A DNA stretch of 32,545 nt, taken from positions 1-32,545 of the forward strand of contig JAFWQE010000121.1 of the NCBI GenBank assembly GCA_017509155.1, given 5' to 3'. The first letter of the stretch is position 1; each line of letters starts with the position of its first letter. A program made the translations under genes and the position numbers. This DNA is from Prevotella sp. (GTDB lineage: Bacteria; Bacteroidota; Bacteroidia; Bacteroidales; Bacteroidaceae). The notes below the pieces were generated by a model. It was not told where the DNA came from, did no database searches, and saw only the letters and a program-made list of their open reading frames with translations. Below are positions 4,287-28,952 of the stretch, in pieces.

Positions 4287-5321
4287 CTATTGCAGCTCGG
4301 GCCAACCGTCGGCGGTCCACCGAATGGTTTTCTGCACCAGCACAGAGGCGCCTTCGAGGGGCACGCTGTAGCCGTGGCAGATGAAGATGTCTTCGTTGTT
4401 CAGGTGATAGGCGGCACAGTGGCCCAGGGCCTCAAACGCCTTCTTGTCGCCCTCGATGAGCAGGTTTCCACCACCCAGACGCATGTCCATACCGAGGCGG
4501 TCTGTATAGGGGCCTTCCACGCGGCGGCTTCTTCCCACAGCCACTCTGTAGTTGCTCTTGGCACCTCGACAGCAGTAATCCCAGGCCACAAAAAGGTAAT
4601 AGTAGCCACCGTGCTTCATGATGAACGGCGCCTCGATGGCGTTCTGGCCGGCGAACTTCGATGTGGGGTTCTGCTCGGCGCGGCTTGTGTTGCCCGGTGC
4701 ATGGCGGCGTGCGATGGTGCGCGGACGCCAGCCTTTCATGGGGTGCATGGTGTCGTCGAGGCGAATGAGCTGTATGCCGTCCCAGAAAGAGCCCCAGGTC
4801 ATCCAGGGCTGGTCGTTGTCGTCAATGATGATGTTCGGGTCAATGGCGTTCCAGTCGTCGCGCTTTCCCTTCGAGGCGACGACACATCCCTCATCGCGCC
4901 ACGCATAGTCGGGCGAGGAGGGATTGAGCGTTGGACTGCTGATGAGGCCGATGGCCGAGGTGTTCACGCCAAAGGAGGAACAGCTGTACATCATCCACCA
5001 GCGGCCGTGCCAGCGAATGATGTCGGGAGCCCAGATGTGGCGGCGGAACTCGGGCACCGAGTCATGGGTCCACGCAGGCACGTTGTCCGTGAGCACGCCC
5101 TCGGGATAGACGGTCCATGTTTGGCGGTCGGTGGACGTGGCCATCATGATGTTCACGCCTGTGGCATACAGATAGTAGGTGCCGTCTTCATAGGCCATGA
5201 CGGGGTCATGGACCATCAGCGTGTCGGTCTTGAACGGATGGCGGGGCCGGTGGCTGCGGTTGTCCTGGGCCTGGGCGGTGAGGGAGGCCAGCAAGAGCAG
5301 GGCGGAAAAGAAGATTTTCAT
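4287..5321 (-). CDS. Secreted GH43 endo-1,5-alpha-L-arabinanase (Arb43A-like)
   Basis: A 344-residue glycoside hydrolase predicted to cleave alpha-1,5-linked arabinan. The signal peptide ends near residue 19 (LTAQAQ). Five-bladed GH43 propeller hallmarks are visible: catalytic-base Asp39 in the VHDPVMAYEDGTYYLY segment, Asp161 in NAIDPNIIIDD, general-acid Glu230 in AIEAPFIMKHGGYYYLF, and His301 in LGHCAAY at the usual metal-coordinating His position. The segments NTSAIGL, LNPSSPDY, WGSFWDGIQL and WDYCCRGAKSNYRVAVGRS closely match what I recall of Cellvibrio Arb43A, which supports arabinanase over beta-xylosidase. It has no accessory domain and no lipobox, so it is probably periplasmic. It lies between chromate transporter genes and the kinase-less regulator, all on one strand with gaps of about 56 bases. 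Confidence 0.9.
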   Translation of the reverse strand: MKIFFSALLLLASLTAQAQDNRSHRPRHPFKTDTLMVHDPVMAYEDGTYYLYATGVNIMMATSTDRQTWTVYPEGVLTDNVPAWTHDSVPEFRRHIWAPDIIRWHGRWWMMYSCSSFGVNTSAIGLISSPTLNPSSPDYAWRDEGCVVASKGKRDDWNAIDPNIIIDDNDQPWMTWGSFWDGIQLIRLDDTMHPMKGWRPRTIARRHAPGNTSRAEQNPTSKFAGQNAIEAPFIMKHGGYYYLFVAWDYCCRGAKSNYRVAVGRSRRVEGPYTDRLGMDMRLGGGNLLIEGDKKAFEALGHCAAYHLNNEDIFICHGYSVPLEGASVLVQKTIRWTADGWPELQ

Positions 5322-5378: not shown

Positions 5379-5954
5379 TCAATAGAACAGGATGATGCCC
5401 GCCACGGCACAGTAGAGAATCATTCGGATTGGGTTGATTTTCATGAACTTCGTGGCGACAAAGGTGGCAATAAACAGAGCGCAGCTGATGGTGAACTGCC
5501 ACGGATTCGTCTCGGGCGTGGAGAAGTTGTCGGGCGTCATCAGCAGCAGTGTGGCGGCAGCCAGCAGGCCCACCACGGCTGGTCTGAGACCCATGAAGAC
5601 GCTCTGCACCGTCTGGGTTTTCATGTATTTCATGAACAAGCGACTGATGAGAATCATCAGGATGAGCGAAGGCAGCATGAGTGCAAAGGTGGATGTGGCA
5701 GAGCCAAGGACGGCCATCGGCATGCTGTAGCCGGCTTTTTTGATGACGGTGTAGCCGCAATATGTCGCCGAGTTAATGCCAACTGGACCAGGTGTCATCT
5801 GGCTGATGGCCACAATGTCGGTGAACTCTGCGGTGGTCAGCCAGCCCCAATGGCGCACCACCTCGTCCTGAATCAGCGACAGCATGCCATAGCCGCCGCC
5901 AAAACCGAAAAGGCCTATCTCAAAGAAGGTGATGAAAAGATAGAGGTAAATCAT
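5379..5954 (-). CDS. Chromate transporter family protein, second half-size subunit
   Basis: A 191-residue integral membrane protein with one CHR domain. The family signature is clear near the N-terminus: FGFGGGYGML, then SQMTPGPVGINSATYCGY around residues 51-70, and GLRPAVVGLL around 125. About five or six hydrophobic segments follow. It is half the length of the fused two-domain ChrA. It starts 24 bases after the stop of another half-size CHR gene (5978-6520), so the two probably form an antiparallel heterodimer. Chromate efflux is only the family name; the true substrate in gut-type Bacteroidetes is not known from sequence. Confidence 0.88.
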   Translation of the reverse strand: MIYLYLFITFFEIGLFGFGGGYGMLSLIQDEVVRHWGWLTTAEFTDIVAISQMTPGPVGINSATYCGYTVIKKAGYSMPMAVLGSATSTFALMLPSLILMILISRLFMKYMKTQTVQSVFMGLRPAVVGLLAAATLLLMTPDNFSTPETNPWQFTISCALFIATFVATKFMKINPIRMILYCAVAGIILFY

Positions 5955-5977
5955 TCACTTTTTCTATTTTGGGGTCA

Positions 5978-6520
5978 TTATTCTGTGGGCTGGATGTACT
6001 TGCCGTAGACATATCCCGCCACGGCCGCTGCGATGATGATGAGGATGGGCGACACGCCCAGCAGCCAGATGAGCAGGGCTCCGCCGATGGGAATCCAGCA
6101 GGTGGAGAGGCTGATGTGCGCTCGTTTGGCCAGATTGAAGGTGGGAACGGCTATCAGGGCCACCACGGCGGGGCGGATGCCTTTGAACATAGCGGCCACG
6201 ACGCGGTTGTCTTCGAAGCTGTGGAAGAACATTGCGATGAGCAGGATGATGACAAACGAGGGCAGCGCGGTGGCCACCGAAGCGCACCAGGCGCCTTTCC
6301 GCTGCCGCAGCTTATAGCCGATGAACGTGCTTATATTGATGGCAAAGACGCCCGGACAACTCTGCGCGATGGCGATAAGGTCAAGGAGTTCGTCCTTGGA
6401 AACCCACTGGTGCTTGTCCACGACTTCCGACTCGATGAGCGGAATCATGGCATAGCCACCACCGAAGGTGACTATGCCAATCTTGAAGAATGTTCTGAAC
6501 AGCTCGGTGTACAGGCTCAT
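5978..6520 (-). CDS. Chromate transporter family protein, first half-size subunit
   Basis: A 180-residue membrane protein with a single CHR domain. It has FGGGYAMIPLIE near the N-terminus, IAIAQSCPGVFAINISTFIGYKL in the second conserved block, and GIRPAVVALI near the middle, followed by hydrophobic segments to the C-terminus. Its start codon overlaps the purL stop codon in an ATGA arrangement (6517-6520), so it is very likely translationally coupled to purL. Its partner gene follows 23 bases downstream. The pair is typical of short-chain bipartite CHR transporters. The link to a purine gene has no obvious functional reason and may just be operon neighbourhood. Confidence 0.88.
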   Translation of the reverse strand: MSLYTELFRTFFKIGIVTFGGGYAMIPLIESEVVDKHQWVSKDELLDLIAIAQSCPGVFAINISTFIGYKLRQRKGAWCASVATALPSFVIILLIAMFFHSFEDNRVVAAMFKGIRPAVVALIAVPTFNLAKRAHISLSTCWIPIGGALLIWLLGVSPILIIIAAAVAGYVYGKYIQPTE

Positions 6521-16840: not shown

Positions 16841-18166
16841 TCAGAAGTCAAACGGACGTCCGCGGTAGAAGTCGAGCAGCGCGCTCTGGTAGACGAACTC
16901 GTATTTGGCGCGCACCAGGTCGCTCTCGGCCTTCATCAGGTTGTTCTTGGTCTCGTTGAATTCCGTAATGTTGGCCTTGCCAAACTCATACTTCGCCTGC
17001 ATCAGGCGGAAAGCTTCCTGCTGGCTGTGGAGCGCCTTCTCGCTGCTGTCGTACTTGGCCTGCGCGTTGACGGCGTTGTAGTAGGCCTGCTGTATTTCCT
17101 TGTAGAGGCTCTTCTTGGTATTCTCCAGCATGAGCAGTTGCGTCTGTCGGCTGAGCTCGGCGTTGCGGATGTTGTTGCGCGTCTCGTAGCGGTTGAAGAT
17201 GGGCACGTTCAGACTCAGTCCGAGATACTGGCTGAAGTTGTTGTTGAGCTGCTTGAAGAAGCCGTCGGCAGGAAAGCCGCTCGTCTTGTAGTAGTTGCTG
17301 CCAAGTCCGGCCTGGAACGACAGTGTGGGGAGCTTGGCGCTGCGGGCGATGTCGATGCTCTTGGCCGCACCCTCGAGCCTGAACTGCTCGGCCCTGACCT
17401 CGGGTTTCAGCATGACGGCCTCGGCATATATCGCATCGGGCGACAGCTGCTGGGCGTTGGGCGATGGCGGCACGGTGGTGGGCACCACGATGTTGAAGCC
17501 CTCGGGCGACGGCAGTTCGAGCAACTGGGTCAGCGCCAGCAGCGCCAGCTTGCGGTCGTTCTGTGCCTGTGTGGCAGTGAGCCTGCTCTGCGCCAGGGCG
17601 GCTTCTTGCTGAGCCACCTCGGAACCGCTGGCCTTTCCGTTGCGCATCATCTCGGTCAGGCGGAACACCTGCAGCGAGTCAATCTCAATCTGGCGGTTGG
17701 CCACCTGGCAGAGTTCGTCGCTATAGAGAATCTGAACGAACGCCTGGGCCACCTGCATGCGTATGTCGTTCTTGGCCTTTTCCAGGTCTTCGTTGGCCGC
17801 CTGAAGGTTCAGTTGCTGCAGCTCCAGGGTGCGTGGGATGCGGTAGCCTGTAAAGAGCGGCACCGAAGTGCCCAGCGAAAACGAGGTGCTGCTGGTATTG
17901 GTGTTGGTGTAAGTGTTCTCTGCGGTGAGTCCTCGTCCGAAAGAAAAGTTCTCGCTGACCGACCCGCTGAGGTCGGGCAGACGGCTGTTGCGGGCGGTGT
18001 TGACGTCGATTTCGCGCTGCTGCCGGGTGATGTCGCTCCGCTTGATCTGCAGGTTGTGGTCCACGGCATAGTCGATGCACTGCCTCAGCGTCCATGTCTG
18101 CTGCGCCTGCACGTGCAGGGCAGCGGCTGCCATGATGGCTATGATGGTCTTCCTCTTCATATTCAT
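16841..18166 (-). CDS. TolC-family outer membrane efflux protein
   Basis: A protein of about 441 residues forming the outer membrane channel of the export system. The start at 18166 (MNMKRKT, or MKRKT at 18160) is chosen because a signal peptide ending HVQAQQ follows. A longer upstream frame runs back into the preceding gene and has no signal sequence. Two repeats of the outer membrane efflux domain are visible, each with long amphipathic helices rich in Gln, Ala and Glu. They include TLRQCIDYAVDHNLQIKRSDI at the N-terminus and LGLSLNVPIFNRYETRNNIRNAEL in the second repeat. Its start lies 13 bases after the membrane fusion protein gene stop, so it is the last gene of the exporter operon. Confidence 0.93.
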   Translation of the reverse strand: MNMKRKTIIAIMAAAALHVQAQQTWTLRQCIDYAVDHNLQIKRSDITRQQREIDVNTARNSRLPDLSGSVSENFSFGRGLTAENTYTNTNTSSTSFSLGTSVPLFTGYRIPRTLELQQLNLQAANEDLEKAKNDIRMQVAQAFVQILYSDELCQVANRQIEIDSLQVFRLTEMMRNGKASGSEVAQQEAALAQSRLTATQAQNDRKLALLALTQLLELPSPEGFNIVVPTTVPPSPNAQQLSPDAIYAEAVMLKPEVRAEQFRLEGAAKSIDIARSAKLPTLSFQAGLGSNYYKTSGFPADGFFKQLNNNFSQYLGLSLNVPIFNRYETRNNIRNAELSRQTQLLMLENTKKSLYKEIQQAYYNAVNAQAKYDSSEKALHSQQEAFRLMQAKYEFGKANITEFNETKNNLMKAESDLVRAKYEFVYQSALLDFYRGRPFDF

Positions 18167-18179
18167 AGTGGTGGCTGTG

Positions 18180-19295
18180 TTATTCTTCCTTGTCGTCGTC
18201 GCTGACCACCTGTGGTCCGCGCACCTTTTCCTTGAGGCCGAGTCCTTGCTTGATCTCGATGTTAACGCCGTCGGAGAGACCGGTGGTGACCTGCTTGCGC
18301 TCATAGGTCTTCTGCTCGCCCTCGCCCTTCACGATGTAGACGAACGTGGAGTCGCCACTGAATTCGATGGCGCTCTCTGGCACGCTCACCACGTGAGTGG
18401 CCTTGGCCAGCACGATTTCAGCGTTGGCTGAGTAGCCCGAACGTATCTTGCTGCCCTTGAGAACATGGACGGCGGCCTTGATTTCAAACTGGTTGGCGCC
18501 GTTGCTTTCCACTGCCTTGGGCGAGATATATTCCAGCGAGGCATCGAAGGAAAGGTCCTGCAGGGCGCCGATGGTTATCTTCATGGGCATGCCCGAAACG
18601 AGATGTCCCACCTCCGTCTCGTCGATGTTGCCGCGGAAAATCAGGTCGTTCATGTTGGCCACCGAAGCGATGGTGGTGCCGTCGTTGAAGGTATTGGAGT
18701 TGATGACCGAGTTTCCGACCTTGACGGGAATGTCGAGGATGATGCCCGAAATGGTGGACCGGATGAGCGTTGACGACGCCGAGGCGTTGCTTCGCGACAC
18801 GCCATCGCGCACCACGGCGAGGGCGTCGTCGGCCGCCGTCTTCTCTTCGCGGGCCTGCCGCAGGGCTTGTCGGGTGCGGTCATATTCATCGGCGCTGATG
18901 AGCTCCTGCTTGTAGAGCGCCTCCACGCGGCTGAGGTCTATCTGGGCCTGCCGCAGATTGATTTCGGCAAGACGCACGCGGCTCTGCGCCGAACTGAGCT
19001 GCGACATGTCGGGAATGACCTTCACCTTGGCGATGACCTCACCCGCCTGCACCATGTCGCCGGGTTCTTTGAGCAGCTCGGTGATGATTCCCGAGATCTG
19101 AGGCTTCACGTTGACCTCGTTGCGCGGCTCTATCTTTCCGGTCACGATGGTGGTTTTCGCGATGTCGGTTGTTTGTGGGGTGAACTCATTGTAGACAACC
19201 GGCTGCGGTTGAGACTTCTGCCAGAGGAACAGGAATGTTCCGATGAAGATCAGGGCCACGAGGGCTGCGATGATCAGTTTGCTGTACTTCTTCAT
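18180..19295 (-). CDS. Membrane fusion (periplasmic adaptor) protein, MacA/HlyD type
   Basis: A 371-residue adaptor that should bridge the MacB-like permeases and the TolC channel. One N-terminal membrane anchor covers about residues 7-25. A barrel-sandwich half (VTGKIEPRNEVNVKPQISGIITELLKEPGDMVQAGEVIAKV) follows. Residues about 97-165 form an alpha hairpin (AQSRVRLAEINLRQAQIDLSRVEALYKQELISADEYDRTRQALRQA). The second lipoyl half (STISGIILDIPVKVGNSV) and beta-barrel/membrane-proximal domains (VVSVPESAIEFSGDSTFVYIV) complete it. It ends in an acidic DDDKEE tail. The upstream spacer (19296-19450) contains GGAGTT-type repeats. Confidence 0.93.
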   Translation of the reverse strand: MKKYSKLIIAALVALIFIGTFLFLWQKSQPQPVVYNEFTPQTTDIAKTTIVTGKIEPRNEVNVKPQISGIITELLKEPGDMVQAGEVIAKVKVIPDMSQLSSAQSRVRLAEINLRQAQIDLSRVEALYKQELISADEYDRTRQALRQAREEKTAADDALAVVRDGVSRSNASASSTLIRSTISGIILDIPVKVGNSVINSNTFNDGTTIASVANMNDLIFRGNIDETEVGHLVSGMPMKITIGALQDLSFDASLEYISPKAVESNGANQFEIKAAVHVLKGSKIRSGYSANAEIVLAKATHVVSVPESAIEFSGDSTFVYIVKGEGEQKTYERKQVTTGLSDGVNIEIKQGLGLKEKVRGPQVVSDDDKEE

Positions 19296-19450: not shown

Positions 19451-20698
19451 TCATTCGTCGCGCATGGCGTCCACAGGCTTGATACTCATGGCGCGCGTTG
19501 CAGGAGCTAGTCCCGCGAGAACGCCCATGATGCTGACCACGAGTGCGGCGAAGATGGCCGTCCAGAAGTTCACCTGAAAGTGGGCCATGACGATTCCGTC
19601 CTCGGTGTTGCCCATCTCCAGCATCTGAAGAATGGCCACGGCGAAGAGGATGCCGCTCATGCCGGCCACCAAGGTGAGCACAATGCTCTCGCTGATGATC
19701 TGCGACAGCACGATGCGCGGGGTGGCTCCGATGGCACGGCGTATTCCTATCTCGGTGGTGCGTTCGCGCACGGTCACCATCATGATGTTGGACACACCGA
19801 TGGCACCCGCCAGGAGCGTGCCCAGACCTACTAGCCATATCAGGAAGTTGACGCCGCGGAACAGGTTGTCGAGCAGCTGGAAGAGCACCTCGGTGTTGAA
19901 CACCATCGTGCCCTGTTCGTCAGTGGGGTCCACATAGTGTGCCCGTGCCACCGTCTCGCGTATGCGGCTGGTCAGGGAGCTCATCACCACGCCCTTGCGG
20001 CCCGTTACCGCAATCATGTCCACCTGGTTGCCACGGTTGTAGGCCTGTTGCATCAGTGTGATGGGCAGAATGACACTGGTTCCGGCCTCGCCGCCGAAGT
20101 TGATGGCCTCCGAGACATTGTAGTCGACACCCACAATCTGGAAGAAGATGGAGTCGATGCGGATGCACTTGCCACACGGATCGCCACCGCCGGGGAAGAG
20201 ATCCTTGTAGGTTTTCTTGCCGATGACGCACACCTTGCGGTGCTCACGCAAGTCGGCCTCATTGATGTATCGCCCGTAGAAGATCTTCGGACTGTTCACC
20301 AGCTGGTAGTCGGGCATGGCTCCATTGACGCCCACCGAGGCTTTCTTGTCGCCGAAATAGGCCGTGCCGCCGTTGGAAAACAGCAGCGGCGTCACCACGT
20401 CGAGCTCGGGAACGCTGCTCTTGATGCGCTCCACGTCCTTGTATTCCATCGTCCAGTAGCGCCCCTTTCGGAAACCCTTGTAGGCTTTCGAGGTGGGCTG
20501 CGACCACACCATGGCCGAATTGGTGGCAAAGCCCGCGAAGTTCTGGTTGAGCATTTCCTTCAGTCCCTGTCCGCCACCTATGAGCGCCACCAGCATGAAG
20601 ACGCCCCAGAAGACGCCGAAGCCGGTGAGGAACGAGCGCGACTTGTTGCGAGTCAGCGTGTCCAGTATTTCGCGATAGCTGTCGAGATCTATTCTCAT
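19451..20698 (-). CDS. MacB-like ABC transporter permease, second copy
   Basis: A 415-residue membrane subunit. The start at 20698 (MRIDLDSYREILDTLTRNKSR) matches the N-terminus of its paralog; an upstream frame extension is unlike the family. One N-terminal helix (SFLTGFGVFWGVFMLVALIGGGQGL) precedes a large periplasmic MacB core domain. Three C-terminal helices form the FtsX domain, with the typical IGVSNIMMVTVRERTTEIGIRRAIGA segment. It lacks a fused ATPase, which is encoded separately at 22267-22986. With the neighbouring paralog it probably forms a heterodimeric mechanotransmission-type exporter. Confidence 0.93.
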   Translation of the reverse strand: MRIDLDSYREILDTLTRNKSRSFLTGFGVFWGVFMLVALIGGGQGLKEMLNQNFAGFATNSAMVWSQPTSKAYKGFRKGRYWTMEYKDVERIKSSVPELDVVTPLLFSNGGTAYFGDKKASVGVNGAMPDYQLVNSPKIFYGRYINEADLREHRKVCVIGKKTYKDLFPGGGDPCGKCIRIDSIFFQIVGVDYNVSEAINFGGEAGTSVILPITLMQQAYNRGNQVDMIAVTGRKGVVMSSLTSRIRETVARAHYVDPTDEQGTMVFNTEVLFQLLDNLFRGVNFLIWLVGLGTLLAGAIGVSNIMMVTVRERTTEIGIRRAIGATPRIVLSQIISESIVLTLVAGMSGILFAVAILQMLEMGNTEDGIVMAHFQVNFWTAIFAALVVSIMGVLAGLAPATRAMSIKPVDAMRDE

Positions 20699-20822
20699 TG
20701 TTGTATGTCTTTTTCTGTTCTTGAAAGTACCCATTGTGATTTTGAAGTCCGAGAGATTAGGAGTGCGGTAGCCATGATGATGGCTGAGGCCTGATGCCTT
20801 TGTGTCTTGCTTCTCCTTTATC

Positions 20823-22079
20823 TCACTCTGCACGGAGCGCTTCTATGGGTCTGATGCGTGCGGCCTTCATAGCCGGGATGAGTCCGGCGATGGTGCCGGC
20901 GATGACCATCACCATGGTTGCCTCGATGCAGACGTCGAGTCCGACGGTGGGGTCGACGAACATCGTGGCCTTGAACAGTCCGGTGTCGATGGTTTCGTGG
21001 CCCAATGTCGCGTCCATGTATTCATTGGCAAAGATGCCAAGCAGCATGCCGATGTAGCCGAAGAAGGTGGTGATGATGACGCTTTCTATGATGATGAGTC
21101 GCAGAATGCCCCATGGCTTGGCGCCGATGGCCTTGCGAATGCCGAACTCATGTGTGCGTTCTTTTACGGTGATAAGCATGATGTTGGACACGCCCACGAT
21201 GCCCGAGAGCAGGGTGAACAGTCCGACAATCCACAGCGCGGTGCGGATGATGCCGAGACCCTGGTTCATCTGCAGGCTCTGCGTGAAGCGGTTCCAGATC
21301 CAGAAACTGCTCTCGTCCTCGGGATGAGCCTGGTGATTGGCGTTGAGGCGCTGACGATAGGTCTTTTCAAAATCCTCGTTGGCCTGCTCGGTCTCCAGTC
21401 CGTGGAAGGTGAACTCTATGCGCCCGACGTCCTCAGAGTTGGCCCCGTAGATGCTCTTGATGGCCGAATAGGACGAGAAGGCGCGAGCCTGTCCGTTCTC
21501 GTTTTCCTTGTAGATGCCCACCACCTGAAAGGCAAAACTGCCCACGTTGAGGTATTTGCCGATGAGCGATGTGGGATTGCCGGGCGCCAGTTCTTTCGCC
21601 TGGTTGTTGCCCAGAACGAGCACTTTGCGCTTCTCCTTGATGTCTATCTGGTTGATGAAGCGGCCGTGCAGCATCTCTGTCTTGTCAATCTTGTTGTGGT
21701 TGGGAAACACACCGGCCAGCTGGGTGCTGATGTATTGCTGGCCCTGACTGATGGTGACGGTGGTGTAGTACTGCGCGCCCACCTCGTCGATGACCTCGCC
21801 AAACTCCTTGCCGGTGGTTTCCAGGTCGCGCGTCTGCACACTTATCTGCCGGCCTTCCTTCAGTCCCTTATAGGGTTTGGAGGTTTCTCCGCCGAAGATG
21901 ACCATCGAAGAGCTGAGGAAACGGTCGCTCTGCTTCAGCTGCGCGTTGATGAGTCCGTTGCCCGCACCCAGCAGCACGATGAGCATGAAAATGCCCCATG
22001 CCACGGCAAAGCCCGTCAGCCCGGTGCGCAGCTTGTTGCGCTGCGTGGTGCTCCATATCTCGGTGATGATGTCTCTCAT
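20823..22079 (-). CDS. MacB-like ABC transporter permease, first copy
   Basis: A 418-residue membrane subunit with an N-terminal helix (TGFAVAWGIFMLIVLLGAGNGLI, about residues 22-44), a periplasmic MacB core domain of about 230 residues, and a C-terminal FtsX domain of three helices. The conserved IVGVSNIMLITVKERTHEFGIRKAIGA segment lies before the penultimate helix. It shares architecture and start with the next gene (19451-20698), indicating tandem duplication followed by divergence. It follows the ATPase gene after an unusually long, repeat-filled spacer (22080-22266). Confidence 0.94.
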   Translation of the reverse strand: MRDIITEIWSTTQRNKLRTGLTGFAVAWGIFMLIVLLGAGNGLINAQLKQSDRFLSSSMVIFGGETSKPYKGLKEGRQISVQTRDLETTGKEFGEVIDEVGAQYYTTVTISQGQQYISTQLAGVFPNHNKIDKTEMLHGRFINQIDIKEKRKVLVLGNNQAKELAPGNPTSLIGKYLNVGSFAFQVVGIYKENENGQARAFSSYSAIKSIYGANSEDVGRIEFTFHGLETEQANEDFEKTYRQRLNANHQAHPEDESSFWIWNRFTQSLQMNQGLGIIRTALWIVGLFTLLSGIVGVSNIMLITVKERTHEFGIRKAIGAKPWGILRLIIIESVIITTFFGYIGMLLGIFANEYMDATLGHETIDTGLFKATMFVDPTVGLDVCIEATMVMVIAGTIAGLIPAMKAARIRPIEALRAE

Positions 22080-22106
22080 TTTGATGGTTGTTTATTCAGT
22101 GTTCTC

Positions 22107-22266
22107 GGGTCCGGGTGGGTGATGGGTGGTGGGTGTAGGGTGGTGGCGTATAGGAAAGATGGCTCCACCCACATTGCTGGCGTTCACGGTGCCGCGGTCC
22201 ACGGTGGTGGCGTATAGGAAAGATGGCTCCACCCACCATCACCCATCCCCCAACACCCATCACCCA
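22107..22266. repeat. Repeat-rich spacer with duplicated 34-bp unit and inverted GT/CA tracts
   Basis: A 34-bp unit containing GGCGTATAGGAAAGATGGC occurs exactly twice, at 22139-22172 and 22203-22236. A GGGTGATGGGTGGTGGGTG-type tract (about 22113-22140) faces a complementary CACCCAT/CCACC tract (about 22230-22266), so the spacer could fold into a long hairpin within the exporter mRNA. Confidence 0.8.
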
Positions 22267-22986
22267 TTATTTCATGATGCCACCCATGCCGAACGGCGAC
22301 GAGTTGTGGTCGGTGTTGATGTCGATGTTTCCAATTACGCCGTCCTTGATGTGCACGATCTTGTTTGTCTCGTTGGCCACGCCGCTTTCGTGGGTTACCA
22401 CGACGATGGTCATGCCCTGCTCCGCGTTGAGTTGCTTCAGCAGCTGCATCACCTCCACGCTTGTCTTCGAGTCGAGGGCACCTGTGGGCTCGTCGGCCAG
22501 TATGATCTGCGGCTTGGTGATGAGGGCCCGGGCGATGGCCACGCGCTGTTTCTGGCCGCCCGACAGCTCGTTGGGATAGTGGTCGGCCCATTCGAGCAGC
22601 CCCAGGCGGTCCAGATAGTCCATGGCCATCTGGTGGCGCTTGCGGCGCGATACGCCCTGATAGAACAGCGGAAGCTCCACGTTCTCTACGGCGGTCTTGA
22701 AACCAATCAGGTTGAAACTCTGGAAAATGAAGCCAATCATGTGGTTCCGGTATTCGGCGGCACGGCGCTCACTCAGGTTCTTGATGAGCGTGCCGGCCAG
22801 GTGATACTCGCCCGAATCGTAGTTGTCGAGGATGCCCAGGATGTTCAGAAGCGTGGACTTGCCCGACCCCGAAGCGCCCATGATGCTGACAAACTCGCCC
22901 TCATCAATGCGGAGCGAGATGCCTTTCAGCACGTGCAACGGCTGGGCACCAAAGTAGGTTTTGTTGATGTCTCGTAGGTCTATCAT
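22267..22986 (-). CDS. ABC transporter ATP-binding protein, MacB/LolD type
   Basis: A 239-residue ATPase for the adjacent MacB-like permeases. It has Walker A GASGSGKST (37-45), the Q-loop Gln89 in FIFQSFNLI, signature LSGGQKQR (141-148), Walker B IILADEPTGALD (161-172) and switch His199 in VVVTHE. It is the first gene of the five-gene exporter operon. A -7 match, TATCTTTG (23024-23031 on the minus strand), lies 38 bases upstream of the start; the matching -33 box is not clear. The last residues are Met- and Gly-rich. Confidence 0.95.
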   Translation of the reverse strand: MIDLRDINKTYFGAQPLHVLKGISLRIDEGEFVSIMGASGSGKSTLLNILGILDNYDSGEYHLAGTLIKNLSERRAAEYRNHMIGFIFQSFNLIGFKTAVENVELPLFYQGVSRRKRHQMAMDYLDRLGLLEWADHYPNELSGGQKQRVAIARALITKPQIILADEPTGALDSKTSVEVMQLLKQLNAEQGMTIVVVTHESGVANETNKIVHIKDGVIGNIDINTDHNSSPFGMGGIMK

Positions 22987-23048
22987 TCAATTGTCAATTG
23001 TCACTTGTTGTTCTTTAGACGTGCAAAGATATAGGAAAAGTTGCACAT

Positions 23049-23402
23049 TTAGTTGTCTTTCCACGCTTTTTCCACGTCTTTGATGTCAATTCCTAACAAT
23101 TTCATGTTGCGGAACAGCTCCGGCAGCTGCTGCTCCATGAAGTCCTTTCGTCGGGCAGCAAGGATTTTCTCGCGTGCTCCTGGCGTTACGAAGTAGCCGA
23201 GTCCGCGCTTGTTGTAGATGATTTCGTCGCGCGCCATCTGGTCGTAGGCCTTCATGGCGGTATTAGTGTTCACCTGCAGGAGCACAGCATACTCGCGGAC
23301 GCTCGGTATGCGCGCGTCGTCGCCGTAGTCGCCTGCCAGAATCTGGTCGCACAGGCGGTCGGCCATCTGCAGATAGATTGCTTTATCGTTGTTGAATGTC
23401 AT
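23049..23402 (-). CDS. GntR-family repressor, YtrA subfamily
   Basis: A 117-residue regulator with an N-terminal winged helix (about residues 8-73: IYLQMADRLCDQILAGDY, RIPSVREYAVLLQVNTNTAMKAYDQM, GLGYFV). It has only a short helical C-terminal segment. This layout, without a large effector domain, defines the YtrA subfamily, whose members usually repress the ABC transporter operon they belong to. Its start overlaps the stop of the upstream membrane protein gene by four bases (23399-23402), so it is translated with the operon. The inverted repeat at 26581-26602 is its most likely operator. Confidence 0.92.
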   Translation of the reverse strand: MTFNNDKAIYLQMADRLCDQILAGDYGDDARIPSVREYAVLLQVNTNTAMKAYDQMARDEIIYNKRGLGYFVTPGAREKILAARRKDFMEQQLPELFRNMKLLGIDIKDVEKAWKDN

Positions 23403-24163
23403 ACGTTCGTGTATTTTGAGGTGATGATCTGAAAGCGCTTGTAGAGCCTATAACTGAGCCGAAAGTTGAAGATGGTGAAGGCGAGATAGAACAAGTTCCA
23501 GAACCAGGTCCAGCCTTCCCTCACGGCTTCGCTGGCATCGGGCGGGCAGAAAAACCGATGGGCCTTGCTCAGAAAAAACGATAAGACCACTGTTATCAAC
23601 ATTCCCACGGCGAAGCTGTGGCGGCGGAGCCAGGTGCCGGCCACGACAAACAGCGAGAGGAACCATGGAAAGAAGGCGCCGCGTGAACCAAAGGTGTTGT
23701 ACACCTGCTTGGAGAGGTTGATGCCAAGGTCCCATTCATAGCCCATCAGCATGAAGAGCGAGGCGCGCAGTACATCGCCGAGCAAGAAGGCCAGGTTCAC
23801 ACACAGCGGCCACACAATAAGCACATAGATGGCGGCCACCAGATAGTGTTCGAGTTCGCTGGCCGGCAACGTGAAAAAGGCGATGCGCTGCTGCTTGGTC
23901 TTCAGGGTGGTGAAAATGCTGCTGGCAATATACAGGATGATAACGGTGATGGCGAAGAGACAGACGTTCGTAGCCATCAACGTGGGGCGCATAGACTCGC
24001 CAAATTCCTTGACCTCAGAATAGCCTAAGGCCCAGGTGAAAAACGCATGTATAAGGGTAAACGCTACGGTGAGGCCGACTGTCCATGCCGTCAGGTTGCG
24101 CTGGTTCTCGCACAGATACCAGCGAAGCAGGCGGCCAAAGCGCTTTATGTTGAACTGTTTCAT
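23399..24163 (-). CDS. ABC-2-type membrane protein of the YtrA-like operon, second
   Basis: A 254-residue integral membrane protein with about six hydrophobic segments (for example TVGLTVAFTLIHAFFTWALG, TNVCLFAITVIILYIASSIF, YLVAAIYVLIVWPLCVNLAFLLG and FAVGMLITVVLSFFLS). A short loop reads AFFTLPASELEHYLV, matching the VPASNVEKFLS loop of the preceding gene, so the two are probably paralogous permease subunits served by the ATPase at 25027-25866. No characterised homolog was recognised. The gene starts 49 bases downstream of the previous stop and overlaps the repressor gene. Confidence 0.75.
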   Translation of the reverse strand: MKQFNIKRFGRLLRWYLCENQRNLTAWTVGLTVAFTLIHAFFTWALGYSEVKEFGESMRPTLMATNVCLFAITVIILYIASSIFTTLKTKQQRIAFFTLPASELEHYLVAAIYVLIVWPLCVNLAFLLGDVLRASLFMLMGYEWDLGINLSKQVYNTFGSRGAFFPWFLSLFVVAGTWLRRHSFAVGMLITVVLSFFLSKAHRFFCPPDASEAVREGWTWFWNLFYLAFTIFNFRLSYRLYKRFQIITSKYTNV

Positions 24164-24212
24164 ATCTTTCTGATTATAAGAATGTTAGGTGAAAATGTAG
24201 TGGCGGCTGACC

Positions 24213-25010
24213 TCAGATGTTGGTGAAGCGGCCGATGAGTTGCCTGCGGCAGAACAGCAGGTAGGACAGTACCACATTGACCACGCTGAGCAGGGGAAGC
24301 ACCACGTACATCACTGCCGCGTTGTTGAGTAGGAAATTGTGAACCATCTGGCCAAACGAGTAGCCGTTTTCGTAAGCATCAGACGAGCCGAAGGACCACA
24401 CGCACACCAGCAGGGCTATGATTGCCACGATGATGAGTGTGGTGAACACCCAGCTGTATTTCACGCTGCGGAACAGGTTGGCGCCGAACAGGAAGAACGT
24501 GTGGACCCAGATGGCCAACAGCAACAGGTGGCACAGCAGCGGCCCGGCGTTTTGCATTGTCCTCCCGCAGAGGCTTATGATGTTGGCAATGACGGAAGAC
24601 ACGTCATCGTGACCTGCCACCACATTCAGGGCGTATTGCAGACCGTCGGCTGCGATGACGGCCACAGTCAGGCTCAACAGCGTCACGATGAACGACACCA
24701 GATAGCGCGAAAGGAACTTCTCCACGTTGCTCGCGGGCACCAGAAGCAGTTCGCGGATGCCATCTTTTCTGTCGCGAAACGACAAGAACATGTAGCTGCC
24801 GCCAACGACAACACACGTGACAATGGCGCTGAAAAAGGCCAGAGCGCCTAAGCGGGCGTCGTCGGGTTGCTTGATGACAAACAAAAAGATGGAGATGAAA
24901 CAGAGCGAGCCTATCCACACCAGCAGGTTTTTCCGGTTGTAGGGCCTGTCGGTGGCCAGCTGCCAGTTCACCAGCTTGACGAACCGGCTGAATTGAAACA
25001 CTTTATTCAT
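24213..25010 (-). CDS. ABC-2-type membrane protein of the YtrA-like operon, first
   Basis: A 265-residue integral membrane protein if translation starts at 25010 (MNKVFQFSRF). A Met four codons upstream (25022) is also possible and would begin four bases after the preceding stop. It has about six helices (for example LLVWIGSLCFISIFLFVI, LGALAFFSAIVTCVVVGGSYMFLSF, YLVSFIVTLLSLTVAVIAADG). The loop RKDGIRELLLVPASNVEKFLSRYL carries the (L/V)PASxxEkfl motif shared with the next gene. It is predicted to be the membrane partner of the ATPase immediately upstream. The substrate is unknown. Confidence 0.75.
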   Translation of the reverse strand: MNKVFQFSRFVKLVNWQLATDRPYNRKNLLVWIGSLCFISIFLFVIKQPDDARLGALAFFSAIVTCVVVGGSYMFLSFRDRKDGIRELLLVPASNVEKFLSRYLVSFIVTLLSLTVAVIAADGLQYALNVVAGHDDVSSVIANIISLCGRTMQNAGPLLCHLLLLAIWVHTFFLFGANLFRSVKYSWVFTTLIIVAIIALLVCVWSFGSSDAYENGYSFGQMVHNFLLNNAAVMYVVLPLLSVVNVVLSYLLFCRRQLIGRFTNI

Positions 25011-25026
25011 GGCTGTGGGCATTGCT

Positions 25027-25866
25027 TTAGGATTGGGGGTTGATGTTCTGGATTTTCCCTGCGGTCACGGCGTTGAAGAGCAGCTCCAGGTTCAGCTGTG
25101 TCTCGCCGCTGCCGGCCTCACGCCGCGCTATCACGGCGTTGCCCTGCATGGATGGCTCGCTGTAGACGACGTCGTCCATCGGGCTGCCCAGCGCGCGATA
25201 CTCAAAACCGTAGCTTTCGCAGATGTCGCCAACCGACGCATTGAGCAGCAGACCCGAGCGCGACAGGATGAGAATATGGTCGAGAAGCGACTCCACGTCG
25301 TGCACCTGATGGGTGGAGATGATGAGCGTGCGATCCTCGGTCATGTTGTTGGCCACCACGCGGCGGAACTGTGTCTTCGACGGAATGTCCAGCCCGTTGG
25401 TGGGCTCGTCCATGAGGAGCAGCCTCGTTCCCGCAGCAAGGGCGAAGCTCATGAAGACTTTCTTCTTCTGTCCCATTGAGAGAGCATTGAGATGAAGTGA
25501 TGTGGGCAGTTCGAAATCTTCAAGGCAGCTCCTGAGCACCTCGCTGCTGAAACGGGGGTAGAAGGGCTTCATGATGCTCACGTATTTGTCGAGCGTCATG
25601 GCGGGCAGGTCGAATTCCTCGGGTACGATGAACAGTTCCTCGAGCATGGCGGGCAGACGCTTGCCCGACTCCATGCCGTCGACGGCGACGCTGCCCTGCG
25701 TGGGGCGCAGCAGTCCGGCCAAGAGGTAGAGCAGGGTACTCTTGCCCGTGCCGTTCTTGCCCAACAGGCCGTAGATGTTGTTTTCGCTGAGCTGAAGGCT
25801 GAAACCGTCGAACACGAGTTCCTTCGAGCCTGCATATCGATAGCTGAGATTCTGAATGTCGATCAT
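25027..25866 (-). CDS. ABC transporter ATP-binding protein of the YtrA-like operon
   Basis: A 279-residue ATPase with Walker A GKNGTGKST (36-44), signature LSMGQKKK (129-136), Walker B LLLMDEPTNGLD (149-160) and switch His186 in IISTHQ. The signature has Met in place of the usual Gly and the Q-loop region is LFIVPEEFDLP, both common in YtrB/BcrA-type ATPases. A C-terminal extension of about 70 residues follows the domain. Two membrane proteins and a GntR repressor follow directly. No promoter match was found in the 194-base spacer upstream, so transcription from the promoter at 26605-26636 is likely. Confidence 0.93.
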   Translation of the reverse strand: MIDIQNLSYRYAGSKELVFDGFSLQLSENNIYGLLGKNGTGKSTLLYLLAGLLRPTQGSVAVDGMESGKRLPAMLEELFIVPEEFDLPAMTLDKYVSIMKPFYPRFSSEVLRSCLEDFELPTSLHLNALSMGQKKKVFMSFALAAGTRLLLMDEPTNGLDIPSKTQFRRVVANNMTEDRTLIISTHQVHDVESLLDHILILSRSGLLLNASVGDICESYGFEYRALGSPMDDVVYSEPSMQGNAVIARREAGSGETQLNLELLFNAVTAGKIQNINPQS

Positions 25867-25941
25867 GGGTGTATCTTTTTTATATATGTGTTCTGTTGAT
25901 GATGATTCTGATGTTTGTGGGTTGCTGGTGTCTCATTTGCT

Positions 25942-26034
25942 ACAGTAGTGGCAGAGGTTCGCTGCTCTGTGCTCTTCAGCCTTGTGGCAGGCAGAGGCGT
26001 TGTCTGTAGTTTCCTGGAATCCTGCCACTACTGT
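25942..26034. repeat. Inverted repeat in spacer between DUF3836-like gene and ABC ATPase gene
   Basis: ACAGTAGTGGCAG (25942-25954) and its exact reverse complement (26022-26034) flank a 67-base loop that itself holds two GGCAGAGG copies. It has no T-run, so it is not a classical terminator. It may be an mRNA processing or attenuation structure. Confidence 0.65.
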
Positions 26035-26060
26035 TGCTCCTTTTCCAAGGCAATGGCGCC

Positions 26061-26540
26061 TCACTTTTTTGCCAGCAGGATGTCGTTCCAGGTGTTGCTG
26101 ATGGTCAGATGGTCTATGGGATGGAAGTCGCCTCGGTGGTCTCTCTTCAGATAGTTCACGGAAACGAGGTTGTCCAAGCTGAACGTATAGACGGCCTTCT
26201 CGTCCACGTTTTTCCATTCCTGGGTCTTGCCGTTCCAGTCGCTGTGTGAGAGTTCGTAGCCGTTGTCGGTGTAGCAGAACTGCAGGCGATAGTCGGGCAC
26301 GAAGCGGTTTTTCCAGGTGTCCCATCGGCTGACGGTCTTTTCCACGAGGCGGCCGTTGGCGTCATAGCTGAACTGGCACGTCAGTTTGTTCTGAAGCATG
26401 TCGCCTTGCTGGGCGTACACATAAAGGGTCTTCACTGCGCCGTTCTCGATGTCGGCGTTGTAGTAATAGTCAGAACTGTTGCTGTTGGCAGCGTTGAAAT
26501 ACATGCTGAGCACGGTGAACACGGTGATGATGGTTTCCAT
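26061..26540 (-). CDS. DUF3836-like small secreted protein
   Basis: A 159-residue protein resembling the Bacteroidetes family DUF3836, recognised from its repeated aromatic beta-strand pattern: VKTLYVYAQQ, CQFSYDANGRLVEKTVSRWDTWKNRFVPDYRLQFCYTDNGYELSHSDWNGKTQEW. The first 20 residues are moderately hydrophobic (METIITVFTVLSMYFNAAN) and could be a signal peptide, though a clear cleavage site is missing. No enzyme motif is present and function is unknown. It is the first gene after a strong promoter whose start site is covered by an inverted repeat, and it probably leads the ABC-GntR operon. Confidence 0.7.
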   Translation of the reverse strand: METIITVFTVLSMYFNAANSNSSDYYYNADIENGAVKTLYVYAQQGDMLQNKLTCQFSYDANGRLVEKTVSRWDTWKNRFVPDYRLQFCYTDNGYELSHSDWNGKTQEWKNVDEKAVYTFSLDNLVSVNYLKRDHRGDFHPIDHLTISNTWNDILLAKK

Positions 26541-26580
26541 AATTCTTGTATTTTTAAATTGTTATTTTAAAGGTGTTTTA

Positions 26581-26602
26581 GTGTACTACTTTAATAGTAC
26601 AC
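26581..26602. promoter_or_regulatory. Perfect inverted repeat, probable GntR/YtrA operator
   Basis: GTGTACTA (26581-26588) and TAGTACAC (26595-26602) are perfect 8-bp arms around CTTTAA. It lies immediately downstream of the -7 element on the minus strand, over the predicted transcription start. GTG and CAC half-ends are 16 bases apart, like the GGTG-N16-CACC form I recall for a Xanthomonas YtrA-type regulator. Confidence 0.6.
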
Positions 26603-26604
26603 CG

Positions 26605-26636
26605 CAAAGGTAGGCTGATTTCGCTTTCCTTCCAAA
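26605..26636 (-). promoter_or_regulatory. Promoter of the DUF3836-like gene and probably the ABC-GntR operon
   Basis: On the minus strand TTTG (26633-26636) is followed after 20 bases by TACCTTTG (26605-26612), an exact consensus pair. The predicted start of transcription falls inside the inverted repeat at 26581-26602, leaving a leader of about 60 bases. Confidence 0.75.
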
Positions 26637-26761
26637 TTTTTCCGAGCTTTTTTTTCGGAAAAGGCCGATATTTAACATTTGTTAGTTCTTTGGGCTTGGT
26701 TTTTGCGTTTTTCGGTCTTGTTTTTCAAGGTTTGAGCACTCTTTGCCTCTGCCTGTCAAGA
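26637..26761. other. Gene-free spacer between convergently placed regulatory elements
   Basis: Part of the 344-base gap 26541-26884. Apart from the promoter and operator (26581-26636) and the terminator (26762-26823), it is T-rich sequence without a recognisable gene or site. Confidence 0.5.
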
Positions 26762-26823
26762 AGAAACCCTGCATGGGTGAAAGCAAAGAAGACGAACTTG
26801 CTTTCTGCCCATACAGGGTTTCT
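26762..26823 (-). terminator. Long hairpin terminator of the lipoprotein arabinanase gene
   Basis: The arms 26762-26786 and 26798-26823 pair over about 24 positions with one mismatch and one extra base around an 11-base loop. The minus-strand transcript leaves the stem into TTCTTCTTG. It begins about 60 bases after the stop codon at 26885. Confidence 0.7.
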
Positions 26824-26884
26824 GTTCTCTTTATCTTGCGGTCCAGGTCTGGGGCCTGGGCCTATGCGCTTCGCGCGTACCTAT

Positions 26885-28831
26885 TTACTTCTTCTTCCCC
26901 CAGAATGTGGTGGGATTGTTGCGGCTTTGCGGTGTGTAGCCGGCATACACGATGGTGGCATGGCGCGGGTTGGCCTCCCAGTCCACCTCGCGGGCCACGC
27001 AGAGCTTGTAGTTGCCAATGGTCAGGATGTTCTTGGCCGGATCGAAGCTCCACTTGGCTGCACTGAACGGTCCGCCGCTCACGGTGTGGTCGGCGCTGAA
27101 GGTGGCGCTGACCGACGAAATCTGCTGTCCGTACTTGTAGGTGATGGACAGGTGGTCCCATGTGCCAACAATCTCGGCCTCGCTGATTTCCTTCTGCGGC
27201 ACGGCGCCATAGCGTTCGGGCAGCACCACGGGCCAGCCGTCCTCAGTCCAGAGGATGCGGCGCACGTGACCCAGCATCACAGCGTTGGGCGCCCACTCGG
27301 GCATCACAGGATAGTCGGTGGGGAAGCGGCCCTGGCACGAGAAGAACCAGTTGTCCTGTCCGTCTTCCCACACGGCGCAGTGGCTGATGCCCACCCATCC
27401 GGCATCGCCCGCAAACTTATACGGGTGGGTGATGATTGGGTAGGCGTCGCCGCCGTTGGTCACGTCGTTGCCCTGATAGTTCAGGTAGGGTCCGTCCACC
27501 TTGGTGGAGCGCACCACGCGCGTATTATAAGGAATGTCGAGTCCGTCGTAGGCCATGAACAGGTAGTAGTAGCCATTGCGATAGATCACTTCCGGAGCCT
27601 CGGAGCCCTGCCAGCGGTTGCCGTTCTCGCGGGTGTACACGCGCTTGCCGTAGTTGGCGGCATTGGCGGCGCCCCACGGGTTGCCCAGTTCGTGCATCGG
27701 CTTGCCGGTGTCGGGGTTCAGCTGCACGGCGGGGAAGCCCGAGTGCCACGAACCGTAGATGAGCCAGTGCTCACCGTTGGGCGTGATGATGTACGACGGG
27801 TCGATGGCGTTCCACCTGTAGTAGCAGTTGCCCCAGTTGTCGGGACGCACGTGGAAGTTGAGTTCGCGGTCGCTGTAGTTGGTGATGACGAAGCCTTTGT
27901 CCTGCCACGACCTGATGTCCTGTGGCGTGCTGGTCTCCATAAGGCCTATGAATGCGCGCTCGCCCCAAGAGTTGTTGGTGCCGTCGATTGTTCCGTCGAT
28001 GGTGATGACATAGTACATGCGGTAGAGATTAGCGCTTACGCGACGTGCGCAGGGTGCCCAGTAGCCGCACTTGTTGAAGTCGGCCTTGCTGTCGCCCAGC
28101 CCCATGGCAGCGTGTATCTCGTTGAGCTTTGTCTTCACCCATGAGGGCAGTTCGGTCATCGTGGCTCCCATGTATTCCCAGTCAACCATGTTCTTCGAGC
28201 GGCGGCAGTGGAAGTGTCCGTGGCCGTCCTGCGGGTTGCCGAAGCCGGCATCGGTCTGATACATGTAGTAGTAGCCGTCGTCGGCCTTCATCACTGTCGG
28301 GTCGTGAACGTTGGCCAGGTTCCATTTGGCGCGGTCATTCCAGCCGGCAAACGAGCGGTAGTCGTCCTTATAGGTGGGTGGTGTGTAGCCGATGAGCGGG
28401 TCGACATAGGGTTTTTCACTGGTGGTGAAGCTGGTCTGCTGCGAGTAGATGGTGCCCTGTGCATTGGTCAGGAAGGCGCGCACGTAGTAGGTGGTGCTTG
28501 GTTCCAGGTTGGTCAGATAGGCCGTCCAGCCCGACGTGAGCGATGCCACGGTGGCGTTCAGGGCGGGATTGGCCGAGGTGCCGTAGCAGAAACCGTGCTT
28601 CGTCATTCCCGAAGCGCTACCCGTAATGGTGGTGGTCAGCGTGGCCGATATCTCGGTGATGTCGCTAACGGTGGGCACGGCCAGCGAGGTGGTCTGAGGT
28701 GCCGGCTCCGGATTGTCGGGGTCGTCGCTGTCGCCGCACGATGCAAACAGCCAGCTGACGCAAAGCAACAACACAGGCAGCACACCGCCCAGCGTTGTGC
28801 AGGTGAATAAAGATGATGATGGTCTTTTCAT
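26885..28831 (-). CDS. GH43 arabinanase lipoprotein with fibronectin III-like domain, probably surface exposed
   Basis: A 648-residue lipoprotein. The start at 28831 (MKRPSSSLF) is chosen because a lipoprotein signal follows (LLLCVSWLFASC, lipid Cys32) and the upstream extension runs into the leader. The Cys is followed by acidic residues (GDSDDPDNPE), in line with the Bacteroidetes surface-export signal. A fibronectin III-like domain spans about 48-138 (TTYYVRAFLTN). The GH43 propeller follows, with Asp177 in NVHDPTVMKADDGYYYMY, Asp344 in NAIDPSYIITPNG and Glu411 in GSEAPEVIYRNGYYYLF. A C-terminal beta domain of about 90 residues (EIVGTWDHLSITY) resembles a lipocalin-like or GH43 C-terminal domain. 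Endo-acting arabinanase is the best guess, by similarity to surface arabinan enzymes of Bacteroides. It is transcribed from 28922-28952 and ends at a long hairpin. Confidence 0.9.
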   Translation of the reverse strand: MKRPSSSLFTCTTLGGVLPVLLLCVSWLFASCGDSDDPDNPEPAPQTTSLAVPTVSDITEISATLTTTITGSASGMTKHGFCYGTSANPALNATVASLTSGWTAYLTNLEPSTTYYVRAFLTNAQGTIYSQQTSFTTSEKPYVDPLIGYTPPTYKDDYRSFAGWNDRAKWNLANVHDPTVMKADDGYYYMYQTDAGFGNPQDGHGHFHCRRSKNMVDWEYMGATMTELPSWVKTKLNEIHAAMGLGDSKADFNKCGYWAPCARRVSANLYRMYYVITIDGTIDGTNNSWGERAFIGLMETSTPQDIRSWQDKGFVITNYSDRELNFHVRPDNWGNCYYRWNAIDPSYIITPNGEHWLIYGSWHSGFPAVQLNPDTGKPMHELGNPWGAANAANYGKRVYTRENGNRWQGSEAPEVIYRNGYYYLFMAYDGLDIPYNTRVVRSTKVDGPYLNYQGNDVTNGGDAYPIITHPYKFAGDAGWVGISHCAVWEDGQDNWFFSCQGRFPTDYPVMPEWAPNAVMLGHVRRILWTEDGWPVVLPERYGAVPQKEISEAEIVGTWDHLSITYKYGQQISSVSATFSADHTVSGGPFSAAKWSFDPAKNILTIGNYKLCVAREVDWEANPRHATIVYAGYTPQSRNNPTTFWGKKK

Positions 28832-28921
28832 GATTGTATACCTTATTTTAAATATTTGTTCACGTTCGGTTTGTTTTCTGGAGTCTTGCGACTGAGTCTT
28901 CCGCAATCTCATTGTTGCATG

Positions 28922-28952
28922 CAAAGATAGGGAATTTTAGGCAAATGGCAAA
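28922..28952 (-). promoter_or_regulatory. Promoter of the lipoprotein arabinanase gene
   Basis: On the minus strand TTTG (28949-28952) precedes TATCTTTG (28922-28929) by 19 bases. Predicted start of transcription is near 28916, giving a leader of about 85 bases before the ATG at 28831. Confidence 0.75.

Follow-up and report, generated by a model that had tools for sequence, protein, structure and literature searches.

GntR-type repressors that govern their own ATP-binding cassette (ABC) operons are described for two Firmicutes. According to the available excerpts of the published accounts, YtrA of Bacillus subtilis, the small GntR repressor of the ABC operon ytrGABCDEF, binds AGTGTA-13 bp-TACACT (PMC8060467), and its system responds to lipid II cycle inhibitors (PMC12772383). 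In Staphylococcus aureus, PmtR, a YtrA-subfamily repressor, has a 36-bp footprint that overlaps the pmt start site, and phenol-soluble modulin peptides, which are exported by its own transporter, release it (excerpt of PMC5080381). The operators of the subfamily are described as long palindromes with GT/AC distant from the center, mostly one site before the operon, in the available part of a comparative study, which included no Bacteroidetes YtrA protein (PMC4494728). Here, we analyzed a stretch of 32,545 nucleotides from Prevotella sp. (contig JAFWQE010000121.1; the window) that carries a block of five genes, for a DUF3836 protein, an ABC ATPase, two membrane proteins, and a GntR regulator, behind a promoter overlapped by a palindrome. 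A first-pass annotation had interpreted the block as one repressor-controlled unit, and genome comparisons support this. We consider it likely that the block is an autoregulated ABC operon, ancient in the order, and that in Prevotella the DUF3836 gene was inserted between the operator and the ABC gene. A YtrA-type autoregulated ABC operon is an already known kind; what is new are the way in which the predicted operator is arranged on a promoter of the Bacteroidales type, DUF3836 in first position, and second operator copies before envelope genes.

As far as the excerpts describe ytr (PMC8060467, PMC12772383), the block resembles it in having an ABC operon with its own small GntR repressor, AGTGTA/TACACT as operator half-sites, two membrane proteins alongside an ATPase, a further small gene at the front (ytrG there), and a second transporter of the MacB/FtsX type, encoded in the window by the next genes. 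It differs in its spacer (12 versus 13 bp), in its Bacteroidales promoter, in the repressor gene, which follows the permeases instead of preceding them, in carrying DUF3836 in place of YtrG, and in the HlyD and outer-membrane efflux protein (OEP) genes that come afterwards. With pmtR-pmtABCD it shares a YtrA-subfamily repressor, a site over the operon's start site (predicted in the window), and an ABC exporter of its own (excerpt of PMC5080381), but the gene order is another one, pmt has no DUF3836, and both window proteins fall far below the cut-offs of the equivalent models (45.2 versus 200 bits for PmtR and 110.3 versus 350 bits for PmtA, the best NCBIfam model of the ATPase). For the regulator, the MocR-type model PdxR ranked first (50.6 bits) and PmtR next, both far below cut-off. 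Several traits of the YtrA subfamily were found: a winged-helix GntR domain at the N terminus (PF00392, E value 3.4e-8, above the cut-off) at residues 10 to 72 of 117, a short C-terminal part (about 50 residues in the subfamily), a position beside ABC transporter genes in the window and its relatives, and a single long palindrome, GTGTA-N12-TACAC, ahead of the operon with GT/AC far from its center. In the PDB, the regulator matched 3ic7 (E value 1e-35) and, over residues 9 to 85, 2du9 (E value 6e-8), which we take to be CGL2947. The two membrane proteins had been called paralogous; they are similar, but only distantly so (BLASTP E value 2e-5, 24% over 147 amino acids), and PDB neighbors of the first yielded nothing informative.

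The promoter consensus of the Bacteroidales consists of TTTG and TAnnTTTG. A scan of the window for Escherichia coli-type sigma-70 promoters was uninformative (4 sites versus 2.8 expected, not above chance), and the Bacteroidales consensus was therefore adopted; TTTG-N17-23-TAnnTTTG matched 4 times in the window versus 0.21 expected. The match before DUF3836 (26605-26636) is the only one within 22,000 to 28,000, and the perfect repeat claimed for its predicted start site is indeed present at 26581-26602, 2 nt after the TAnnTTTG box (Table 1). For this repeat, GTGTACTA-N6-TAGTACAC, a mean of 0.02 matches was expected in the window even at up to 3 mismatches, and the window's own, incomplete genome has one exact site. 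The open reading frames (ORFs) of the five genes follow one another on the minus strand as annotated, and the start of the GntR gene overlaps the preceding stop by ATGA. That the downstream genes share this strand is correct, but the run does not end with GntR; after 62 nt it continues to about 16841. Ahead of the ABC ATPase no promoter match had been reported, and the 194-nt gap that separates it from DUF3836 is free of any TTTG and of minus-strand terminator-like sites. Across 24 DUF3836-ABC gaps (−26 to 290 nt), a full promoter was found in none and a lone TAnnTTTG in one. Upstream, on the same strand, a GH43 gene (26885-28924) is parted from the block by a very stable hairpin that likely marks the end of the GH43 unit, and the unit thus plausibly begins at the promoter.

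Table 1. Features of the block and its surroundings in the window
Feature	Positions	Strand	Basis or remark
Promoter, Bacteroidales-type, TTTG-N20-TACCTTTG	26605..26636	-	Consensus match; same layout beside the repeat in at least 18 loci listed
Predicted operator, GTGTACTA-N6-TAGTACAC	26581..26602		2 nt past the -7 box; covers the predicted start
DUF3836 gene (159 aa), first in the unit	26061..26540	-	PF12930, E value 6.5e-23
First 16 codons of DUF3836, hydrophobic, no basic residues	26493..26540	-	Alignment of 10 operator-linked relatives
Hairpin in DUF3836-ABC gap, 16-nt arms, no T-run	25939..26037	-	z -3.25
ABC ATPase, ABC-2 exporter type	25027..25866	-	PF00005
Membrane protein 1, ABC-2-like permease	24213..25022	-	PF12730, weak, below cut-off
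Membrane protein 2	23399..24163	-	BLASTP likeness to membrane protein 1
Predicted GntR repressor, YtrA size, 117 aa	23049..23402	-	PF00392
MacB/YtrE-type ATPase, 62 nt past GntR	22267..22986	-	YtrE 9o9x, E value 2e-56, ranked behind MacB and others
MacB_PCD + FtsX permease	20823..22079	-	MacB, E value 2e-21; YtrF 9o9x, E value 4e-10
Second MacB_PCD + FtsX permease	19451..20833	-	Domain matches
HlyD-type membrane-fusion protein	18180..19295	-	Domain match
TolC-type outer-membrane efflux protein (OEP)	16841..18304	-	Domain match
Strong hairpin between upstream GH43 gene and promoter	26762..26823	-	z -5.7

We searched 201 genomes of the family with the GntR protein and with the repeat at up to 1 mismatch, leaving the promoter unused. 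A GntR homologue at an E value of 1e-10 or better was present in 133 of these genomes and the repeat in 78. Distances were counted for the 75 repeat places listed (versus the tally of 78 genomes) and for 60 DUF3836 places, 13 weak rows being left out. A GntR homologue lay within 7 kb (1.1 to 5.4 kb) of 68 of the 75 listed repeats, in many genera; three of the other seven were in genomes without a GntR match and four were on other contigs. TAnnTTTG stood exactly 2 nt upstream of 64 of the 75 (11 were without it), even though the promoter had played no part in the search. The combined pattern of promoter and operator was found in 156 of 299 genus, 76 of 201 family, and 34 of 295 order genomes, and its reversed control in none of them. 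Among the 24 loci of the nearest relatives, whose named members are Prevotella and Prevotellaceae metagenome-assembled genomes, 20 had the combined pattern; three of the remaining loci (L045, L047, and L058) begin inside the operon, and L057 had no exact match. AGTGTA-N12-TACACT was exact in 65 of 111 loci, the window having G for A at the first position. These results suggest that 26581-26602 is very probably the operator of the YtrA-type GntR protein whose gene closes the unit.

The predicted operator also occurs in further copies. Three genomes (G452, G538, and G557) have two promoter-operators each, and in G452 both (L207 and L208) front an ABC gene. Away from the ABC operon, second copies lie 141 and 350 nt before ORFs for OMP_b-brl_3 barrels in two genus genomes (L204 and L206), another copy is directly ahead of such an ORF in another genus (L211), and one lies 272 nt before an M16 peptidase whose start is signal-like by eye (L209); the copies before such other genes are few cases, found by pattern alone.

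The DUF3836-like identity of the first gene product held up clearly: PF12930 matched residues 4 to 119 with 81.4 bits against a gathering cut-off of 25. Among solved chains, 4r03 and 4r8o, both uncharacterized, matched at E values of 5e-11 and 5e-10, and 3msw at 0.056. Both the DUF3836-ABC pair and the repeat, whose absence from relatives had been named in advance as one of the findings that would speak against the unit, are conserved in relatives. Order-wide, the first gene behind the operator was the ABC ATPase in 27 of the 28 loci examined (out of 36 listed places), and the remaining locus was the window itself. Nine of the 24 Prevotella loci (L037 to L042, L044, L048, and L051) have DUF3836 between the operator and the ABC gene. 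Of the 146 genus genomes for which a site was listed (150 listed promoter-operator places, versus the tally of 156 genomes, and 91 DUF3836 rows, 8 weak ones left out), 24 have it within 700 bp downstream of the operator on that same strand, and three further genomes (G322, G278, and G425; L226, L228, and L242) have DUF3836 before the ABC gene with an imperfect promoter-operator. In a set of 111 loci, the first gene was ABC in 78 and DUF3836 in 27, while 4 had none and 2 were too short; these shares are not frequencies, as many of the loci were chosen for carrying DUF3836. In a tree of ABC and GntR proteins, the DUF3836 loci, the window, and L049, L052, L043, L046, and L047 (where the available sequence does not reach upstream) formed one clade (88%), which reads as one gain of DUF3836 followed by loss and reduction. 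In the record of L049, the ABC gene is spread over two overlapping ORFs (4543-5311). Two other genes were seen near the slot behind the operator: a DUF7010 membrane protein fills it in one genome (L173, 1573-2118), and in L216 (1229-1558) a 109-amino-acid protein with a weak, below-cut-off match to the immunity protein Imm17 follows DUF3836 and precedes the ABC gene.

A second arrangement was found in both available genomes (loci L112 and L113) of another genus, g23, where DUF3836 and the ABC operon are oriented divergently, each with a TAnnTTTG and an operator of its own. We built a midpoint-rooted DUF3836 tree of 84 sequences, leaving out identical copies as well as 6 ORFs that were fused or divergent. 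In this tree, 28 operator-linked and 15 solitary genes of the genus formed a clade (97%), and the g23 genes fell outside it, so that their association with the operator is apparently a separate link. That DUF3836 is linked to one operator in two ways speaks for a functional tie. The pattern of synonymous divergence (dS) around the g23 gene, given below, looks like a recent exchange of DUF3836 together with its promoter; a search for g23 DUF3836 in viral contigs found none. By comparison of genomes, we thus show a predicted operator, its place on the promoter, its tie to the GntR family, and its linkage to DUF3836 in two arrangements.

In the mechanism that we propose, a GntR dimer would cover the only good promoter's start site and would block transcription of DUF3836, the ABC ATPase, the two permeases, and its own gene, presumably on one transcript, until a signal releases it; envelope or peptide stress is our guess for that signal, as for YtrA and PmtR. 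The ancestral state would have had the operator directly before the ABC gene, and in Prevotella the inserted DUF3836 would have become the most promoter-proximal product. There, at the envelope, it might assist the transporter in the manner of immunity or accessory proteins that counter antibiotics or membrane-active peptides; this is a guess, as is the earlier suggestion of a sensor, decoy, or partner. The lantibiotic immunity sets LanFEG and LanI, in which an ABC transporter and a small envelope protein (LanI is a lipoprotein) belong to one unit, offer an analogy. Our literature searches found no paper on DUF3836 and none on the window's unit (YtrA/GntR in Bacteroidetes, ABC operon, or peptide resistance), most subscription journals being outside their coverage. 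Many members of a bacterial order would hereby gain a predicted regulator together with its operator and a defined set of targets, and the uncharacterized DUF3836 family would be tied to a kind of operon that in Firmicutes serves as a reporter of cell-envelope stress, which gives the family a testable regulatory setting.

How far the unit extends is less certain. Somewhat short of an even chance, in our estimate, is control by the operator past GntR, over the MacB-type ATPase, two FtsX permeases, HlyD, and OEP, to about 16841, which would make one export-defense unit with a gene content resembling that of B. subtilis ytrABCDEF plus outer-membrane parts. The shared strand and the short gap favor this, as do relatives in which the MacB-type ORF overlaps GntR or starts at most 22 nt later (L013, L017, L023, L057, and L060, by longest-ORF starts); in 10 relatives the distance was −35 to 105 nt, and in 5 of the 9 DUF3836 loci L213 to L221, the MacB-type gene lies 72 to 235 nt past GntR. 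YtrE and YtrF are among the PDB matches, and YtrF has MacB-like and FtsX-like domains according to the available excerpt (PMC8060467). However, the 62-nt gap in the window holds a lone TATCTTTG box, and 18 of the 24 nearest-relative loci, including 8 of the 9 with DUF3836, have no MacB-type gene in the downstream sequence covered (0.6 kb in L044, 1.6 kb in L048, 4.7 kb in L039, 5.1 kb in L051, and about 6 kb in the other 14). The matches, moreover, point to the MacB family generally and not to YtrEF specifically: those of the ATPase and permease also include MacB, BceA, and LolD, and the likeness to ytrBCDEF is therefore one of content, not proven orthology. The genes after GntR also comprise everything expected of a MacAB-TolC-type system, namely, a MacB-type ATPase, MacB_PCD/FtsX permeases, an HlyD-type adaptor, and an OEP channel. 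In E. coli, MacB has its ATPase and permease in one protein, with a single permease; in the window the permease is split from the ATPase and present twice.

Less probable, though to be taken seriously, is that DUF3836 is a mere passenger that happened to land behind a regulated promoter and is functionally unconnected to the transporter. Here the points that weigh against our preferred interpretation come together. Most operator loci have no DUF3836, and L049 and L052 lack it even though they fall inside the DUF3836 clade of the ABC and GntR tree; in L043 and L046 it has shrunk to a 21-amino-acid ORF, and in L173 the unrelated DUF7010 gene occupies the slot. The 15 solitary genes form a clade with 100% support on operator-free promoters, outside the operon, and co-regulation is therefore not obligatory. 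Among 46 DUF3836 ORFs scanned in the family (at least two genes being included twice), only the g23 pair had an operator (2 mismatches), the next best having 4. That g23 pair has a dS of 0.03, compared with 0.62 for the adjoining ABC genes; because DUF3836 is near-identical and the ABC genes are not, recombination may have carried the arrangement from one genome to the other, and we counted it once. There may also have been a single old link between DUF3836 and the operator with many losses. Two further points concern the regulation itself: a control pattern matched in 2 of 201 genomes when the palindrome was searched for alone, and the hairpin in the window's DUF3836-ABC gap (arms 25939-25954 and 26022-26037), as stable in 1 of 200 shuffles, is strong enough to possibly reduce downstream expression. 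This hairpin was ruled out as a mobile repeat, being single copy in its own, incomplete genome.

Against a mere passenger speak the two arrangements that link DUF3836 to the same operator, one by an operator copy of its own, the 24 of 146 genus genomes in which it lies directly downstream of a listed site, and the other operator-linked genes seen, which likewise encode membrane or exported proteins. DUF3836 is also under purifying selection, with ratios of nonsynonymous to synonymous substitution rates (dN/dS) of 0.09 to 0.51 in seven pairs, one of which rests on six changes (0.04 to 0.14 for ABC in three pairs). As for the solitary lineage, 9 of its 14 genomes from the genus search have a listed promoter-operator, none with DUF3836 adjoining, and in a fifteenth genome (G075) an ABC gene stands at the promoter-operator; in this lineage, the gene thus seems either to have left the operon or never to have been part of it. 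Upstream of four solitary genes (L119, L222, L232, and L239), we noticed by eye a common start region without operator, TAnnTTTGCA-N-CGTC...AAA, possibly the site of another regulator.

The DUF3836 protein had been described as secreted. This is likely by family, but it is not secure for the window's branch, because its N terminus lacks the basic residues expected ahead of the hydrophobic stretch of a signal peptide; many relatives in PF12930 start with a basic MK, whereas the window type, which is operator-linked, does not. No consistent cleavage site was seen by eye in an alignment of 10 operator-linked sequences, in which the first 16 residues were the most conserved part (78% mean pairwise identity versus 47% for the body). 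In L043 (3198-3404) and L046 (3121-3329), a lone 21-amino-acid hydrophobic ORF resembling this N terminus lies between the operator and the ABC gene; the two differ by eight synonymous and five nonsynonymous changes. We regard it as doubtful that what functions in the first slot is this short hydrophobic N terminus, as a small membrane peptide with a position like that of B. subtilis YtrG, and that the DUF3836 body is an extension of it. The difference in identity between the two parts is consistent with such a peptide, as are the L043 and L046 ORFs (dN/dS about 0.12, from one pair and 63 sites) and YtrG itself, which has 45 amino acids and is encoded upstream of ytrA (excerpt of PMC8060467). 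The body, however, is likewise conserved and under purifying selection, DUF3836 of g23 begins with an ordinary MK signal-like start, the short form occurs in two loci only, which are close relatives, and the segment may be merely an unusual signal peptide.

That the palindrome belongs to another regulator, with the closeness of GntR incidental, is very improbable, considering the 68 of 75 listed sites within 7 kb of the window's GntR family across many genera and the half-sites identical to the YtrA box published in the available excerpt (PMC8060467).

A broader reading of the preferred model is speculative, and we would sooner bet against it: the operator would define a Bacteroidales YtrA-box regulon against membrane-active peptides, in which the ABC core recruits envelope proteins in cis or via new operator copies, namely, DUF3836 (in two arrangements), OMP_b-brl_3 barrels (in two genera), and an M16 peptidase. 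DUF3836 would then be a peptide-binding or peptide-sequestering protein of the immunity type, whose hydrophobic start acts in the membrane as a Gram-negative counterpart to YtrG or LanI.

Elsewhere in the window (5379-6520), two adjacent short membrane proteins, judged by reading their translations, resemble a split chromate-type transporter.

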